Source of the DNA: Accumulibacter sp.
Lineage (GTDB): Bacteria > Pseudomonadota > Gammaproteobacteria > Burkholderiales > Rhodocyclaceae
NCBI GenBank assembly: GCA_024235695.1
Contig: JACKLX010000016.1
Span: 32,998 to 96,997 of the forward strand
Direction of reading: 5' to 3'
DNA: 64,000 nucleotides
In this document: positions 57,826 through 63,639 of the stretch, piece after piece
How the letters are laid out: each line of letters starts with the position of its first letter
Position numbering within the stretch: the stretch's first letter is position 1
Program-made: the position numbers and the translations under genes
The notes under the pieces: generated by a model
What the model saw: only the letters and a program-made list of their open reading frames with translations
Told to the model about the DNA's origin: nothing
The model's database searches: none

Positions 57826-58178
57826 TTCGTGATCCTGCGGTTAGGGCGGTGGACAAGCCTGGCGGCCGAATATCCTATGGCGGGCGCGATTGGTCAAGGA
57901 AATCCAATCGCAAGCCAGGGGGGCGCCCCGGCTGAGTTGCCGTGGCGTTCCGTCGTCATCGCAAGCCAGCACTGCCGGAGCAAGTCTACACATCGCAAGG
58001 CAGGCCGACCATGAATTACGTCACCAATGACAACGCCGCGCCGCCGCCGACGCCGGTTGGCGCGAACGGCGCCGATTGACGGCGGCCGCGGCTTGCGGAG
58101 ATACTCGGCCGTCTGACCGCAATTCCTTGCCCCTGCCGCCACTCCTGCCCGCTGCGAGCCGCTTCGCCACCATCGCCC
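57826..58178. other. intergenic region between rfbA and the RfaH-like gene
   Basis: About 353 bases, containing divergent promoters by position. ATCGCAAGCCAG occurs at 57907-57918 and 57958-57969, with one-mismatch ATCGCAAGGCAG at 57992-58003. A 22-codon frame at 58011-58079 is too short and unsupported. The right end, from 58128, is the start of the 427-bp direct repeat. Confidence 0.45.
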
Positions 58179-58554
58179 GTGTCTGCCAACCTGCCCTCAG
58201 CCAAACCGTGGTACGTCTGCCTCTGCAAGCCGCGGCGCGAGGCGCTGGCCGTGCGCAAGCTCGAGGAGCAGGGCTACGAGGTTTTCCTGCCGATGCTGAC
58301 GCAATGGCAAAAGGCCCGGAGTGGCTGGATAAGGAAGAAACCGCAGGTGATGTTCCCGCGCTACGGCTTCGTGCGCTGCGGTCGTCCCGAGCAGAGCATC
58401 GCACCGATCCGCAGCACTCCCGGCGTCAGCGGCCTGGTGCGCTTTGGCGCGTTTCCCGCGACCCTCGATGATGCGACGCTGGCGGCGATTCGTGCACTGG
58501 CTGAAAGCCAGGCCAGGGCAATGGACGAGGAGAGGACGCCATTCCAGGCCGGCG
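58128..58554 (+). repeat. 427-bp direct repeat, first copy
   Basis: The block 58128-58554 is repeated without a visible change at 59732-60158, 1604 bases away. It covers the upstream 51 bases and the first three quarters of the RfaH-like gene. Confidence 0.9.
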
Positions 58555-58700
58555 ACAGCGTCGAGATCGCCGCCGGTCCGCTCAAAGGCCTGTCGGGCAT
58601 CGTCTCCGCCGTCGCCGACGAGCGGGTAAGCGTGATGCTCAGCCTGCTCGGCCGCGAGCAGCCGGTCGCCGTGCCGGCCGCCCACCTGACGCTGGCGTGA
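58179..58700 (+). CDS. rfaH: RfaH/NusG-like transcription antitermination protein
   Basis: The 173-residue protein has an NGN domain (residues about 10-110) opening with KPWYVCLCKPRREALAVRKL and containing LPMLTQWQKARSGW and MFPRYGFVR, followed by a KOW domain near residue 125 (AGDSVEIAAGPLKGLSGIVS). RfaH-type proteins keep RNA polymerase moving through long polysaccharide operons. It starts at GTG 58179. Location beside rfb genes and before an EPS-type MarR regulator fits EPS control. A truncated copy sits at 59783. Confidence 0.88.
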   Translation: MSANLPSAKPWYVCLCKPRREALAVRKLEEQGYEVFLPMLTQWQKARSGWIRKKPQVMFPRYGFVRCGRPEQSIAPIRSTPGVSGLVRFGAFPATLDDATLAAIRALAESQARAMDEERTPFQAGDSVEIAAGPLKGLSGIVSAVADERVSVMLSLLGREQPVAVPAAHLTLA

Positions 58701-59078
58701 TGGCCGTTGATCGCCCGATGAATCGGGCTCCTGCGGGTCGGGCGGCGTTGACTCACAATGCAGGAGCCCGATTGATCGGGCGGTGTGTCGCTTGCCAGCG
58801 CGCATGTGGTCTATCACAATTGCGACGCGCATACTTGACCTCGGCATCGCTGAGCGCAGTCGTTTCGTGGGCAAGCGTGGTCGTCACGCGCGGCGTTGCT
58901 GCCGGGCTATTTCCTGCGCTGCTCCCGATTTCCAGGGCTTCTTGCCGCGGCGGAGGATAATCTCGTGATTGGACCGCTTTCGGCAGTTGCGCCAGGCGTC
59001 GGTGGCGATGTGACACTCGATAGCGTTCGTGGCCAGTTGGATCTTGAACCGCTTCGTCATTTGGATGGGAGAAACCGG
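58701..59078. other. intergenic region with two facing REP palindromes
   Basis: About 378 bases between the RfaH-like gene and the antitoxin gene. REP copies at 58711-58732 and 58761-58782 face each other with GGAG tails inwards. The remaining 300 bases have short frames on both strands (for example 58884-59165 on the minus strand) with no recognisable domain. Confidence 0.5.
58711..58782. repeat. REP copies 1 and 2, opposed pair
   Basis: Copy 1 (58711-58732) is stem GCCCGAT/ATCGGGC with a GA loop followed by CTCCTG; copy 2 (58761-58782) is the reverse orientation with CAGGAG before the stem and a TG loop. The stem is unchanged between the two. Confidence 0.85.
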
Positions 59079-59315
59079 ATGTTGTCGATTGCGCTGGAAT
59101 GCGAAGTGCCGCCCGACCGCAAGGTCATCGTAAAGATGCCGAGCGAGGTGCAACCTGGCAAACACGAGTTGATTGTGGTGATAAACGAGCAGCCGTTGGC
59201 GGCAACTCCGGGGGAGTCATCCAATGCCGAAGGGCTCAACCAACTCGCGGGAGCCTTGAAATTGACGGAGGATCCGCTCGCTTTTCAAGAGCGCCTGCGC
59301 AAGGAATGGGAATGA
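59079..59315 (+). CDS. antitoxin of a PIN-domain toxin pair
   Basis: The 78-residue protein begins MLSIALECEVPPDRKVIVKM with GGGAGA upstream. It is small, charged and acidic at its C-terminus (EDPLAFQERLRKEWE), as in antitoxins of VapB type, and its stop overlaps the next start by four bases. The N-terminal half may be a swapped-hairpin DNA-binding fold, but no clear family motif is seen. Its role comes from the PIN gene behind it. Confidence 0.78.
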   Translation: MLSIALECEVPPDRKVIVKMPSEVQPGKHELIVVINEQPLAATPGESSNAEGLNQLAGALKLTEDPLAFQERLRKEWE

Positions 59316-59674
59316 GGCTGGTGCTGGATACCAACGTGATTCTCTATCACTTGGCCGATCGCCTGTCGGCGCCACTTCCTCAAGCGACCATCAGCGCGTC
59401 GATCATTTCCGAGATGGAGACGCGCTCCTATCCCGAGTTGAGCGTGCGCGACGAGGCTGTCATTCAGCGCTATCTGGCGTGCCTGCACCTCGTCGAGCTG
59501 ACGCCCGCGATCAAGGAAAAATCGATTTTCTTGCGGCGGCAGCATCGGCTGAAACTGCCCGATGCCATCATTGCCGCCACGGCACAGGAGTTGGGCGCGG
59601 TTCCATTGACCTGTGATAGGCAATTGTTGAATGTGCTGGGAGTCGGCGCGCAAGCGCCCGAAGTGCGTCCCTGA
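59312..59674 (+). CDS. PIN-domain ribonuclease toxin, VapC-like
   Basis: The 120-residue PIN protein has the acidic active-site residues in order: LVLDTNVILYHL (D6), SIISEMET (E about 38), LPDAIIAATA (D about 90) and LTCDRQ (D about 107). VapC-type PIN proteins cleave RNA and are held inactive by the paired antitoxin. ATG 59312 overlaps the antitoxin stop (ATGA) and has AAGGA upstream; ATG 59306 is an alternative. It lies between the two copies of a 427-bp repeat. Confidence 0.9.
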   Translation: MRLVLDTNVILYHLADRLSAPLPQATISASIISEMETRSYPELSVRDEAVIQRYLACLHLVELTPAIKEKSIFLRRQHRLKLPDAIIAATAQELGAVPLTCDRQLLNVLGVGAQAPEVRP

Positions 59675-59731
59675 AACGAGGGAGCATTCCTGCATCGACA
59701 CTTTCCCGGGAATGTCCCTGCCCGGAACGAC

Positions 59732-60158
59732 TGCCCCTGCCGCCACTCCTGCCCGCTGCGAGCCGCTTCGCCACCATCGCCCGTGTCTGCCAACCTGCCC
59801 TCAGCCAAACCGTGGTACGTCTGCCTCTGCAAGCCGCGGCGCGAGGCGCTGGCCGTGCGCAAGCTCGAGGAGCAGGGCTACGAGGTTTTCCTGCCGATGC
59901 TGACGCAATGGCAAAAGGCCCGGAGTGGCTGGATAAGGAAGAAACCGCAGGTGATGTTCCCGCGCTACGGCTTCGTGCGCTGCGGTCGTCCCGAGCAGAG
60001 CATCGCACCGATCCGCAGCACTCCCGGCGTCAGCGGCCTGGTGCGCTTTGGCGCGTTTCCCGCGACCCTCGATGATGCGACGCTGGCGGCGATTCGTGCA
60101 CTGGCTGAAAGCCAGGCCAGGGCAATGGACGAGGAGAGGACGCCATTCCAGGCCGGCG
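59732..60158 (+). repeat. 427-bp direct repeat, second copy
   Basis: This block equals 58128-58554. Left of it the sequence diverges at once. Right of it the sequence jumps to a stretch like that found after the intact gene (TTGACC, then TCACAATGCAGGAGCCCGAT), so the KOW-coding part has been removed by a deletion with a short GGCG overlap at the junction. Confidence 0.9.
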
Positions 60159-60301
60159 TTGACCAGAAGGCCTCACAATGCAGGAGCCCGATTGATCGGG
60201 CGATAACGCGAGAAACGACCGATGCCCGTCAACAGCAAAATCACCCACCACGGCGCCGTCGACGGCGTTACCGGCTCCTGCCACCAGCTCAGCCTGCCTG
60301 A
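59783..60301 (+). pseudogene. truncated second copy of the RfaH-like gene
   Basis: The GTG start and the first 125 residues equal those of the gene at 58179, including the whole NGN domain. After FQAG the frame runs into the REP and then into the 5' part of the beta-CASP gene, giving an unrelated Arg/Pro-rich tail until 60301. The KOW domain, which contacts NusE/ribosomal S10 in this family, is gone. A stable NGN-only protein could still bind RNA polymerase, so regulatory interference is conceivable. Confidence 0.82.
60181..60203 (-). repeat. REP copy 3
   Basis: CAGGAG, stem GCCCGAT/ATCGGGC and a TG loop, the same sequence and context (TCACAATG before it) as copy 2. It lies just 19 bases before the beta-CASP start codon. 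Confidence 0.85.
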
Positions 60302-61625
60302 TGGCCAGTCGGTGCTGATCGACTGCGGTCTGTTTCAGGGCGCGGAAACCTCCGGCGAGGGGGCGGGCGCCGAACAACTGGCCGTCACCTTCCCGATCGA
60401 CGGCGTCCGTGCGCTGGTCGTAACTCACGTCCATATCGACCACGTCGGTCGCATCCCCTACCTGCTGGCAGCCGGCTTCCGCGGGCCGATCATCTGCAGC
60501 CAGGCCTCGGCCGCGCTGCTGCCACTGGTTCTCGAAGACGCCCTCAAGGTCGGTTTCACCCGCAACCAGACGCTGATCGAACGCTTTCTCGCGCAGATCA
60601 GCCAGCAGATCGTCGCCTTGCCCTACAAGCACTGGCACAGCCTCATCGCCGGCCAGCCCGGGCTGCGCGTCAAACTCTCGCCGGCCGGACACATCCTCGG
60701 CTCGGCCTACGTCGAGTTCGAAGTCGCGCAGGGCAGCGACAGGCAACGCGTCGTTTTCTCCGGCGACGTCGGTGCACCGTACACCCCGCTGCTCCCGGCG
60801 CCGCGCCCACCCTATGGCGCCGACATCGTCGTCCTCGAAAGCACCTACGGCGACCGTACCCACGAAAGCCGCAGAGACCGTCGCCAGCGCCTGCAAGCGC
60901 TCTGCGAGCACGCCTTCGCCAACAATGGCAGCGTGCTGATCCCCGCCTTCAGCATCGGTCGCACGCAGGAGCTGCTCTACGAACTCGAAGAAATCATCCA
61001 CCGCAGCGGCCAGCGCCCAGCCGCCCCCGGCATCGCCTGGGACGATCTCGACATCATCGTCGACTCGCCGCTGGCGGCCGACTTCACCGCCGGCTACGGG
61101 CAACTGCGCGAGCACTGGGACAGCGAGGCACGCCGCAAGTTGGTCAGCGGCCGCCACCCGCTGGCCTTCGAACAACTCACCACCATCGACGACCACGCCA
61201 GCCACCTGCGCACCGTCGATTACCTGGCGCGCACCGCCCGCCCGGCCATCGTCATCGCCGCCAGCGGCATGTGCAGCGGCGGCCGCATCGTCAACTACCT
61301 CAAGGCGATGCTCGGCGACCCGCGCCACGACGTCCTGTTCATCGGCTACCAGGCGAGCGGCACGCCGGGCAGGGACATCCAGCGCTACGGCCCCAAGGGT
61401 GGCTACGTCGTCCTAGATGGCCAACGCTACGCGATCCGCGCCGGCGTCCACAGCCTCGGTGGCTACTCGGCGCACGCCGACCAGCACGACCTGCTCAACT
61501 TCATCGGCCGCATGCGCCGCCGGCCAGGGCAAGTCCGCCTGGTGCACGGCGACGCCGGCGCCAAGCAAGCGCTGGCCGCCGCGATCAGGCAGCGGCATCC
61601 GGCGATCGAGGTAAGCATTCCCTGA
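60222..61625 (+). CDS. beta-CASP metallo-beta-lactamase ribonuclease-like protein
   Basis: The 467-residue protein starts ATG 60222. The MBL motif VVTHVHIDHVGRIPYLL is at about residues 68-84, the histidine in SPAGHILGSAYVEFE and aspartate in VVFSGDVG follow, and the beta-CASP motifs ESTYGDR, a serine-rich IPAFSIGRTQELLY, SGMCSGGRIVNYL and GGYSAHADQHDLL complete the set. This is the bacterial CPSF/RNase J-like exonuclease family. It is preceded by a REP and lacks a strong ribosome site. Confidence 0.93.
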   Translation: MPVNSKITHHGAVDGVTGSCHQLSLPDGQSVLIDCGLFQGAETSGEGAGAEQLAVTFPIDGVRALVVTHVHIDHVGRIPYLLAAGFRGPIICSQASAALLPLVLEDALKVGFTRNQTLIERFLAQISQQIVALPYKHWHSLIAGQPGLRVKLSPAGHILGSAYVEFEVAQGSDRQRVVFSGDVGAPYTPLLPAPRPPYGADIVVLESTYGDRTHESRRDRRQRLQALCEHAFANNGSVLIPAFSIGRTQELLYELEEIIHRSGQRPAAPGIAWDDLDIIVDSPLAADFTAGYGQLREHWDSEARRKLVSGRHPLAFEQLTTIDDHASHLRTVDYLARTARPAIVIAASGMCSGGRIVNYLKAMLGDPRHDVLFIGYQASGTPGRDIQRYGPKGGYVVLDGQRYAIRAGVHSLGGYSAHADQHDLLNFIGRMRRRPGQVRLVHGDAGAKQALAAAIRQRHPAIEVSIP

Positions 61626-61635
61626 CGGCCGGAAA

Positions 61636-61658
61636 TCGCCCGATCAATCGGGCTCCTA
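61636..61658 (+). repeat. REP copy 4
   Basis: Stem GCCCGAT/ATCGGGC, CA loop, followed by CTCCTAC. It lies ten bases past the beta-CASP stop and runs into the REP-linked spacer (GGCAGGCGCGTCG...) from which the following Rpn-type frame takes its start. Confidence 0.88.
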
Positions 61659-61659
61659 C

Positions 61660-62259
61660 ATGTTGGCAGGCGCGTCGCCGAACGCCGACGAAAACCGCCA
61701 CCGCGTGGTCACCGCCGCACATCTATTCACCCGCAAGACCAAGGGTGACCCTGAACAACGTTATGCGGCAAAATGGCGGCTGGCCAAGCTGCTCTACGAA
61801 CGCAACTGGGGCAAGCAGCGCATCATCGACCTGTTCAGTGTCATCGACTGGCTGATGCGCTTGCCGACCGAACTCGAGAAGCGGTTGATGGACGAAGTCT
61901 ACACATTGGAAAGGAGCGTCACGATGCCTTACGTCACCTCTGCCGAACGCTTCGGAATAGAAAAGGGCTTGCAACAAGGATTGCAACAAGGATTGCAACA
62001 AGGATTGCAACAAGGTCGCCAGGAAGGTCGCCAGGAAGGTCGCCAGGAAGGTCGCCAGGAAGGTCGCCAGGAAGGCCGCCAGGAAGGCCGCCAGGAAGGC
62101 GAGGCAGCACTCCTGCAGAGCCTTCTCGCCCGCCGCTTCGGCGCACTGCCTGATGCGGTCCGCGCCCGACTGGACAAGGCCACCGTCGAGCAACTCGAAA
62201 GCTGGGCCATCAAGGTGCTCGATGCCCGGTCGCTGGACGAAGTTTTCGATCAGGGTTGA
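61660..62259 (+). CDS. 5'-truncated Rpn-family (DUF4351) protein with tandem repeats
   Basis: The 199-residue frame gives the C-terminal part of Rpn/PD-(D/E)xK transposase-like proteins: VVTAAHLFTRKTKGDPEQRY, ERNWGKQRIIDLFSVIDWLM and, at the end, ARRFGALPDAVRARLDKATV. The first 13 or so residues come from the REP spacer, and the N-terminal nuclease domain is missing, so it is not a complete nuclease. Between them lie four LQQG and seven RQEG repeats. The protein could still fold at its C-terminus, but loss of function is likely. Confidence 0.75.
   Translation: MLAGASPNADENRHRVVTAAHLFTRKTKGDPEQRYAAKWRLAKLLYERNWGKQRIIDLFSVIDWLMRLPTELEKRLMDEVYTLERSVTMPYVTSAERFGIEKGLQQGLQQGLQQGLQQGRQEGRQEGRQEGRQEGRQEGRQEGRQEGEAALLQSLLARRFGALPDAVRARLDKATVEQLESWAIKVLDARSLDEVFDQG
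61967..62101 (+). repeat. 12-bp tandem repeats in the Rpn-type gene
   Basis: Four near-perfect copies of TTGCAACAAGGA are followed by seven or so of CGCCAGGAAGGT/C. They keep the frame and encode LQQG and RQEG units of a probable coiled or extended linker. Such stretches vary in number easily by slippage. Confidence 0.85.
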
Positions 62260-62318
62260 ACGCACCGACCAACACGGCGACCGCCCGACCCGCCAGGCGA
62301 TCGCCTCCACGACCCCCG

Positions 62319-62370
62319 GTAGGAGCCCGATTCATCGGGCGATGACGCCTGTCACCCGATTCATCGGGCA
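62319..62370 (-). repeat. REP copies 5 and 6
   Basis: Copy 5 (62319-62343) is a full GTAG-type element: GTAGGAGCCCGAT, TC loop, ATCGGGCGA. Copy 6 (62352-62370) has lost the GTAGG head and starts ACCCGAT, with a TC loop. Both lie just before the RAYT start. Confidence 0.85.
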
Positions 62371-62394
62371 AAAACCCCCGGCCAACCGACAACC

Positions 62395-62841
62395 ATGGCC
62401 CTTACCCAAGCCCATGCCGAAAACCTGCGGCAAGGCCGCTTCTCGCAATCCGGGCAGGTCTACCTGTTAACCCTGGTGACCTCCGGACGCGCGCGCGTCT
62501 TCGAGCAGTTCGTGCCGGCGCACCAGGCAGCACGCTGCTTCGCCGAGCGATCCGTTCGCCGCTACGGCAGCACGCTGGCGTTTGTGGTGATGCCCGACCA
62601 TGTCCATTGGTTGCTGGAGCTGGCTTCGGAGGTAAGCGTCAGCGACGCCGTGCGCATCTATCGCGCCAAGGTGAGTCTGGCTTTGCGCCGCCGAATCTGG
62701 CAAAAGGGATTCCATGATCGCGCCTTGCGCCGCGATGAAGATCTCGTGGCCGTGGCGCGGTACGTCGTCAGCAACCCCGTGCGCGCCGGGCTCGTTGAAC
62801 GCTCGGGAGATTACCCGCATTGGGATGCGGTCTGGATTTAG
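62395..62841 (+). CDS. REP-associated tyrosine transposase (RAYT, IS200/Y1 type)
   Basis: The 148-residue protein is a single-domain Y1 transposase with the HUH motif VVMPDHVHWLLEL near residues 62-74 and the catalytic tyrosine in VARYVVSNPVRAGLV near 127. N-terminal RFSQSGQVYLLTLVT is RAYT-like. RAYTs nick single-stranded REP DNA at GTAG tetranucleotides in the E. coli and Pseudomonas systems. Here intact GTAG-REPs sit directly before and after the gene, as expected for a REP-spreading enzyme kept by the host. No terminal inverted repeats of a free IS were seen. Confidence 0.92.
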   Translation: MALTQAHAENLRQGRFSQSGQVYLLTLVTSGRARVFEQFVPAHQAARCFAERSVRRYGSTLAFVVMPDHVHWLLELASEVSVSDAVRIYRAKVSLALRRRIWQKGFHDRALRRDEDLVAVARYVVSNPVRAGLVERSGDYPHWDAVWI

Positions 62842-62847
62842 CTCTGA

Positions 62848-62868
62848 TCGCCCGATAAATCGGGCCCC
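62848..62868 (+). repeat. REP copy 7
   Basis: Stem GCCCGAT/ATCGGGC, AA loop, then CCCCGA in place of CTCCTAC; first element of the first 178-bp unit and seven bases beyond the RAYT stop. Confidence 0.82.
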
Positions 62869-62951
62869 GACGTCGGCAGGCGCGTCGTCGAACGCCGACG
62901 AACACCGCCATCGCCCGAACCGCCGGCCGTAAGCCGCCACCAACACCCCTC

Positions 62952-63047
62952 GTAGGAGCCCGATTCATCGGGCGATTACGGCGACCGCTGCCGACGAAGG
63001 CGCGCGAGATCACCCCAGACGCCGATCGCCCGATAAATCGGGCCCCG
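62952..63047. repeat. REP copies 8 and 9
   Basis: Copy 8 (62952-62975) is a GTAG-type element with TC loop in reverse orientation; copy 9 (63026-63047) is forward with an AA loop and begins the second 178-bp unit. Together they form an inverted pair spaced by 50 bases. Confidence 0.82.
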
Positions 63048-63129
63048 ACGTCGGCAGGCGCGTCGTCGAACGCCGACGAACGCCGCCATCGTCCGAACCG
63101 CCGGCCGTAAGCCGCCACCAACACCCCTC

Positions 63130-63226
63130 GTAGGAGCCCGATTCATCGGGCGACAACTGCGAACGCCGCCGTCGACGCGTGCGAGATCACCCCAGACGCC
63201 GATCGCCCGATAGATCGGGCTCCTAC
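63130..63226. repeat. REP copies 10 and 11
   Basis: Copy 10 (63130-63153) has the GTAG head and TC loop; copy 11 (63202-63226) has an AG loop and ends CTCCTAC. It is the last inverted pair before the MarR gene. Confidence 0.85.
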
Positions 63227-63276: not shown

Positions 63277-63293
63277 CGTTCATTTGTTGAACG
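63277..63293. promoter_or_regulatory. palindromic candidate operator of the MarR-type gene
   Basis: CGTTCA and TGAACG form six-base arms around TTTGT, ending seven bases before the ATG. The site sits over the ribosome-binding position GAGAAG. MarR proteins usually bind 16- to 20-base palindromes at their own promoters, so self-repression is a reasonable inference. Confidence 0.4.
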
Positions 63294-63300
63294 AGAAGAC

Positions 63301-63639
63301 ATGACCCCGGCCGAGCAGGTGCACCTGCGTATCCTTCGCATCGTCGAGGAAGAGCCACAGATCAGCCAGCGGCAGCTTGCCGAACGTCTTGGCGCCAGTC
63401 TGGGCAAGACCAATTACCTGATCAAGGCTCTGCTCGACAAAGGCTACATCAAGGCGGGTAACTTCCTGCGCGCCGAAGACAAGCTGAAATACGCGTACCT
63501 GCTGACTCCCGACGGCATCCGCGCCAAGCTGCGCTTGACGCGCAACTACCTTGCCCGGAAGGAGCAGGAGTACGTCGCGATGAAAGTGGAAATCGAAGGT
63601 ATGCGTGCCGAGCTGGCCGCGCAGGACGATCAGGGGTAG
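63301..63639 (+). CDS. MarR-family regulator, EPS-associated type
   Basis: The 112-residue protein is a short winged-helix regulator of the EPS-associated MarR family: EEEPQISQRQLAERLGASLGK is the recognition helix-turn-helix, YLIKALLDKGYIKAGNF the wing and LKYAYLLTPDGIRAKLRLT the dimer helix region. Genes of this type stand at the start of exosortase-linked exopolysaccharide loci. ATG 63301 is preceded by GAGAAG. A palindrome in its leader suggests autoregulation. Confidence 0.9.
   Translation: MTPAEQVHLRILRIVEEEPQISQRQLAERLGASLGKTNYLIKALLDKGYIKAGNFLRAEDKLKYAYLLTPDGIRAKLRLTRNYLARKEQEYVAMKVEIEGMRAELAAQDDQG

Follow-up and report, generated by a model that had tools for sequence, protein, structure and literature searches.

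GTAG hairpins and a RAYT gene at an exopolysaccharide locus of Candidatus Accumulibacter: a probable REP/RAYT system of the GTAG-1 kind

The window analysed here is a stretch of 64,000 nucleotides (64 kb) from Accumulibacter sp. (assembly GCA_024235695.1, contig JACKLX010000016.1, positions 32,998 to 96,997 of the forward strand), and all coordinates are counted from its first letter. Towards its right end lies an intact gene for a REP-associated tyrosine transposase (RAYT), ringed by GTAG-headed hairpin repeats with the layout of repetitive extragenic palindromes (REPs). The surroundings, with RfaH-like, rfbA, rfbC and MarR_EPS genes, are those of an exopolysaccharide (EPS) locus (Table 1). 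A preliminary description, made from the sequence alone, had recognised the Y1 transposase of RAYT type, the EPS locus and the fit to known systems of REPs and REPINs (paired REPs); all three hold. We argue that these parts very probably make up a GTAG-1 type of REP/RAYT system, belonging to the genus Candidatus Accumulibacter. The genome itself (G000; its contigs carry C numbers) is assembled into 3.83 Mb on 32 contigs and is 83.7% complete.

Hairpin repeats in the window

With up to two mismatches allowed, the window has 11 occurrences of the hairpin GCCCGATNNATCGGGC, compared with a mean of 0.70 in shuffled sequence; none of 100 shuffles reached 11. The stem had been described as unchanged in all eleven elements, and in ten it is perfect, but the eleventh (62354-62369) has one mismatch and lacks a recognisable head. 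The consensus of the element is GTAG-GA-GCCCGAT-TY-ATCGGGC-GAT. GTAG had been placed just before the stem in the best copies, and on the better-matching strand five do carry the exact head GTAGGA (stem-loops starting at 61638, 62325, 62958, 63136 and 63205); the remainder have GCAGGA (58713, 58766 and 60186), a degenerate head (62850 and 63028) or none (62354). The loop is less variable than had first been thought. Read on the headed strand, the ten headed window copies have TC, TG, TG, TG, TC, TT, TC, TT, TC and CT, with T first in nine, and among 76 headed copies from 40 fetched loci the loop is TC in 55, TT in 13, TG in 5 and something else in 3. The tail of these 76 is GAT in 62, GAA in 8, GAC in 4 and other in 2. 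Moreover, CT stands immediately 5′ of GTAG in 28 of them, compared with a background frequency of 5.5%; some of the copies share a common origin. Since TnpA-REP proteins cleave at CT or CA, according to the available part of PMC8266576, this dinucleotide is the predicted nick site. CRISPR-like arrays were also considered as the identity of the repeats and were rejected.

The inverted pairs of the preliminary description are real. In the fetched loci, 12 pairs have GTAG on the outside, nine of them with 51-54 bp between the stems, and similar spacers can be recognised in several of these pairs (G000, G001, G013, G021 and G026). A further 17 pairs have GTAG on the inside, and 33-37 bp separate the stems in seven. 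Inverted doublets of preferred spacing are the mark of REPINs. As single-stranded DNA, two pairs of the window form much better folds than shuffled sequences do (z -5.2 and -6.8).

Table 1. Repeats, genes and rearranged segments at the right end of the window.
Feature	Position	Strand	Remarks
RfaH/NusG-like antiterminator gene	58179..58700	+	Pfam NusG over cut-off; RfaH and UpxY models below cut-offs
REP 1	58707..58734 (stem-loop 58713-58728)	-	GCAGGA head on - strand
REP 2	58760..58787 (stem-loop 58766-58781)	+	GCAGGA head; forms an inverted pair with REP 1 (heads inward, stems 37 bp apart); fold z -6.8
Second RfaH-like copy, 3′-truncated, 427 bp	59732..60158	+	Identical to 58128-58554; then REPIN spacer sequence
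REP 3	60180..60204 (stem-loop 60186-60201)	+	Adjoins truncated RfaH-like copy
Metallo-beta-lactamase / beta-CASP gene	60222..61625	+	Protein-family match
REP 4	61635..61659 (stem-loop 61638-61653)	-	Directly past beta-CASP gene
DUF4351 gene, 3′ part	61706..62259	+	Homology to full-length copies starts at 61706; sequence shared with REPIN flank ends at 61704
REP 5	62319..62343 (stem-loop 62325-62340)	+	Upstream of RAYT gene
REP 6	62354..62369		Degenerate: single stem mismatch, headless
RAYT, intact, 148 amino acids	62395..62841	+	HUH residues H69/H71, candidate catalytic Y123
Tandem duplication of REPIN unit	62846..63175 (62846-62997 and 63024-63175)		Period 178; 152 nt at 95%
REP 7	62847..62871 (stem-loop 62850-62865)	-	Degenerate head; RAYT stop 8 bp before
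REP 8	62952..62976 (stem-loop 62958-62973)	+	Exact GTAGGA head
REP 9	63025..63049 (stem-loop 63028-63043)	-	Degenerate head
REPIN	63130..63226		Inverted pair, GTAG outside, 53 bp between stems; spacer similar to pairs of other species; DNA fold z -5.2
REP 10	63130..63154 (stem-loop 63136-63151)	+	Exact GTAGGA head
REP 11	63202..63226 (stem-loop 63205-63220)	-	Exact GTAGGA head
MarR_EPS regulator	63301..63639	+	TIGR04176, 136.6 bits, cut-off 88

The RAYT protein

The RAYT scores 122.3 bits against the NCBIfam model NF047646 (REP_Tyr_transpos; cut-off 80) and also matches Pfam Y1_Tnp. A sequence search of the PDB (phmmer, E up to 0.01) returned a single match, TnpArep 4er8 (E 1.7e-05, 28 bits). 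All of 81 aligned RAYTs share H69, H71, Y123 and P128, and nearly all have N127; conservation of the HUH/Tyr and other residues is 99-100%. By homology, H69/H71 and Y123 would be catalytic. An active IS200 element, or an IS200/IS605 insertion sequence, was rejected as an identity: the transpos_IS200 model gives 23.4 bits, below its cut-off of 55, and the genome holds one RAYT over the cut-off. There is in addition a weak Y1 transposase of 40.5 bits, below the cut-off (L017, C2:40379).

The gene is under purifying selection, with ratios of non-synonymous to synonymous divergence (dN/dS) of 0.17, 0.17 and 0.14 in three species pairs. Between G000 and G011 the synonymous divergence (dS) is 0.83 for the RAYT, 0.61 for the RfaH-like gene, 0.52 for beta-CASP and 0.73 for MarR; the RAYT value is near those of the flanking genes, as expected if it was inherited in place. 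The closest RAYTs are those of Candidatus Accumulibacter regalis (86%) and Candidatus Accumulibacter necessarius (78%), both with an identical stem, and the next (62%) differs by one stem pair. The contigs of these two species are already represented by G013 and G011, respectively, and add no extra evidence to the genus survey.

Heads and stems at other RAYT loci

We surveyed 81 RAYT loci, consisting of the window and the best 80 of 271 matches. A headed hairpin lies within 2.5 kb of the RAYT in 68, and in 64 the same hairpin is present at least twice; our script found no headed hairpin at the other 13. Dinucleotide-matched random flanks gave, in five trials, one headed hairpin at 7-12 of the 81 loci and two at none. 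The heads at the 64 repeat-bearing loci are GTAGGA (41), GTGGGA (19), GCAGGA (2) and other (2), and the tail starts with GA in 60. The stems vary, and stem distance tracks RAYT distance (Mantel r 0.38, 0 of 5000 permutations; in a non-redundant set of 37, r 0.20, 8 of 5000). The RAYT gene is thus flanked by REPs that vary with it. Stem and head had both been proposed to be specific to this lineage. The head is not, because this head type recurs with different stems at RAYTs elsewhere, GTAGGA or GTGGGA accounting for 60 of the 64 loci. The 7-bp stem is nearly, but not wholly, specific to the genus. Among 297 genomes drawn evenly from the family, of which 12 belong to the genus, five have the headed form, four of the 12 within the genus and one of the 285 outside it. 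The latter (G244, loci L192 and L193) belongs to another genus and carries the same REP in four headed copies, with a RAYT match of only 33% over 91 residues.

Distribution in the genome and genus

A genome-wide count, as the preliminary description had proposed, gives 23 perfect hairpins in G000: ten in the window and 13 beyond it, with seven near the start of C14, two on C2 and one each on C4, C5, C10 and C19. The full head is present in 14, and a control with the reversed pattern gave 0. Several REP-bearing contigs break near the repeats, a REP lying within 1 kb of the start of C14 and of the ends of C2, C16 and C19. Therefore, the genome has at least 23 copies, and the cassette may extend onto a further contig. 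Across the genus, the hairpin occurs in 13 of 28 genomes with 120 copies in total (reversed-pattern control 0), and its headed form in ten. A RAYT of at least 78% identity is present in three of the 28 (G000, G011 and G013); 15 have weak matches only and ten have none.

Concentration at the EPS cassette

In G000 and G011 the RAYT gene lies between the beta-CASP gene and MarR_EPS, and in G013 it follows the RfaH-like gene, the contig ending soon after. The headed REPs are biased towards this locus: of 47, 27 are no more than 35 kb from MarR_EPS, where 0.84 would be expected, and 16 are no more than 5 kb from it, against an expectation of 0.12, in a test that covers the six genomes with headed REPs and a MarR_EPS over the cut-off, leaves out 31 headed copies of G002, G004, G007 and G013, and counts copies as independent although some are duplicates, such as five G011 copies with near-identical flanks. 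Eight genomes have MarR_EPS yet no headed REP. The genes near the REPs include GDP-mannose 4,6-dehydratase, UDP-glucose dehydrogenase, epimerases, rfbA, rfbC and many DUF4351 members. A general link between this RAYT family and MarR_EPS was rejected, as it was seen at 1 of the 80 matched loci, namely the G011 record.

Almost all of the hairpins are intergenic. Our own gene prediction puts 81 of the 85 perfect ones from the 40 fetched loci between genes; non-coding sequence makes up 26.6% of the DNA of these loci. The 85 fall into 30 context groups; since adjacent REPs of one pair may join their contexts, this number does not stand for independent insertions. Such hairpins might be kept mainly as RNA elements, acting at transcript 3′ ends or as attenuators in the EPS regulon, with the RAYT an incidental or domesticated neighbour. 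Of 72 intergenic copies, 48 have a 3′ end as the closest gene end, compared with an average of 32.4 and a maximum of 44 in 300 random trials; 32 copies lie within 100 bp of a 3′ end, compared with 17.8 (at most 28) in random trials. Moreover, REPs are concentrated near RfaH-like and MarR_EPS genes, and regulation has been suggested for Thauera in the available part of Di Nocera et al. 2013 (PMC3733652). However, the strand-specific conservation of the unpaired GTAGGA head and of the T-first loop fits a nuclease substrate and not a terminator, and many copies lie far from the EPS locus. We regard a mainly RNA-based role as unlikely.

REPs without a close RAYT

Orthologous REP pairs stand beside the same genes in G000, G004 and G013; two further REP sites are common to G004 and G013, and one to G000 and G013. 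No RAYT match was found in G004, where old REPs thus appear to outlive the enzyme, although G004 also has no MarR_EPS match and an assembly gap at the cassette is a possible alternative cause. In G009 and G021 the stretch from beta-CASP to MarR_EPS is assembled in one piece and the RAYT is absent from it; the same stretch is assembled in G001, with only a fragment of the beta-CASP gene. A search for RAYT remnants in the fetched loci of RAYT-less genomes returned none at E up to 1, except a 43-residue match (E 0.97) in G026. A RAYT may also have been missed in fragmented assemblies. The preliminary description had counted occurrence of the motif in genomes lacking this RAYT against a REP/RAYT system, and the motif does occur in genomes where a close RAYT was not found. 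In our view this does not refute the system, since some of the REP sites have orthologues in RAYT-bearing species. REPs appear to be orphaned in several species, and for the same reason loss of the RAYT is likely.

Alternatively, the REPs of species where no RAYT was found may owe their movement to a distant Y1 transposase acting in trans, or have arrived horizontally with the EPS island. G026, assembled into 10 contigs, carries 14 perfect hairpins, and a RAYT search at E 0.001 matches nothing in it; G244, with its poor RAYT match, has the same REP in another genus. Vertical inheritance, by contrast, predicts the orthologous pairs of G000, G004 and G013 and the sites common to G004 and G013. 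We therefore consider movement in trans or horizontal arrival a doubtful explanation; the orphan REPs would instead be leftovers of a lost RAYT.

Rearrangements at the repeats

A 427-bp stretch comprising most of the RfaH-like gene is duplicated with 100% identity (58128-58554 and 59732-60158), the two copies flanking a gene pair for a small protein and a PIN-domain protein. The second copy was not seen in the fetched cassette stretches of G011 or G013. The REPs at 58766 and 60186 share a common left flank beside the two copies of this stretch; the window copies are not all independent. Two gene fragments of the window, RfaH-like and DUF4351, end at REPIN sequence. Breakpoints therefore fall at REPIN sequence here, since the RfaH-like copy runs into the spacer and the DUF4351 fragment starts beside sequence shared with a REPIN flank.

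Interpretation

In the REP/RAYT system that we propose, the RAYT would act as a single-domain HUH/Tyr nuclease recognising the consensus hairpin in single-stranded form. By analogy with studied relatives, it would bind and nick beside the hairpins, and nicking would let REPINs be copied or moved, perhaps to the present day. Within the RfaH / beta-CASP / MarR_EPS cassette, REPs have also been multiplied by local duplication.

Several observations weigh against this reading. The copy number is low, at 23, and headed REPs occur without a close RAYT in seven of ten genomes, among them G001 and G026, both 100% complete. The local crowding is partly segmental duplication rather than transposition. 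Both flanks of one REP pair are found REP-free in G008, G010 and G021, in intergenic DNA too diverged to align the ends or a target duplication. An origin of the pattern as chance palindromes or as assembly duplication has next to no probability: the assembly is weak near the repeats, at the start of C14 and the ends of C2, C16 and C19, but the window and control counts, and presence in 13 of 28 independently assembled genomes, contradict it.

More speculatively, the EPS cassette may be a lasting home of REPs. In Thauera sp. MZ1T, GTAG-1 arrays border the EPS genes, according to the available text of PMC3733652, and GTAG REPs would repeatedly settle and persist at such sites in Accumulibacter as in Thauera. 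Through RAYT nicking and REPIN pairs, cassette and island genes would then be duplicated, truncated and exchanged, which would make REPs a source of coat variation that outlives the enzyme. We hold this extension of the REP/RAYT reading to be improbable as it stands.

Comparison with known systems

In the available text of Di Nocera, De Gregorio and Rocco 2013 (PMC3733652), GTAG-1 REPs consist of GTAG, two unpaired bases (GW), a perfect short stem, a TY loop and a conserved 3-bp tail. The Accumulibacter element has this layout of GTAG, unpaired GW, stem, short loop and 3-bp tail, and shares with that family the frequent GTAG-inside pairs (family 1), the intergenic placement and, with Thauera sp. 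MZ1T, the arrays flanking EPS genes. Unlike the GTAG-1 REPs of that text, the stem is GCCCGAT, the genus is Accumulibacter, the copy number is low and the RAYT lies inside the cassette itself. High, dispersed copy number is typical there, families of 20-100 copies or fewer being allowed; the 23 perfect copies here are clustered.

The fixed-spacing inverted doublets, the tandem clusters beside the RAYT gene and the long hairpin folds recall the REPINs of Pseudomonas fluorescens SBW25 (Bertels and Rainey 2011, PMC3116915), but tens of copies in all replace the hundreds of SBW25, and the spacer is partly conserved between species (51-54 bp class). Like REPtron Mb of Marinomonas, of the group 3 TnpA-REP proteins, the element has a small perfect palindrome two bases from GTAG; there the available text of PMC8266576 gives cleavage at CT (or CA) with a requirement for GTAG and single-stranded features. 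Its stem is 7 bp rather than the 5 bp of Marinomonas. The TnpA-REP of Escherichia coli (4er8) belongs by sequence to the same fold family, with HUH and Tyr, but the similarity is only 28 bits and REP stems are bulged in E. coli.

The system is thus of a known kind, notable for its bias towards one locus and for REPs that persist where no close RAYT can be detected. The name Accumulibacter does not occur in the available text of PMC3733652, and a limited literature search found no report of REP/RAYT in Accumulibacter, one match concerning another organism. A wastewater-treatment genus thereby gains a new RAYT and a cognate REP, with a clear prediction of substrate sequence. Moreover, the RAYT in three and the REP in 13 of 28 species genomes form a natural series on the fate of REPs after enzyme loss. 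The concentration at the EPS cassette, together with the Thauera case in the available part of its source, means that a connection of REPs with variation in coat genes can be tested.

Neighbouring genes

A beta-CASP gene 53-63% identical to that of the window lies about 1-2 kb from the RAYT in 11 of the 80 matched loci (L031, L032, L035, L037-L040, L065, L078, L081 and L094; Pseudomonas or Pantoea), or 12 with L019. These come mostly from related species and may reflect one old linkage. At 59079-59674 there is a probable toxin-antitoxin pair, a 78-amino-acid gene and a 120-amino-acid PIN-domain gene overlapping by four bases. The C-terminal DUF4351 fragment (61660-62259) contains an in-frame 12-nt tandem repeat of LQQG/RQEG type; DUF4351 relatives are numerous in islands beside MarR_EPS, with 40 members in our clustering. 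Lastly, GTTCANNNNTTGAAC at 63280-63300 lies directly upstream of MarR_EPS in 11 of 11 compared loci and is a candidate operator of the regulator.

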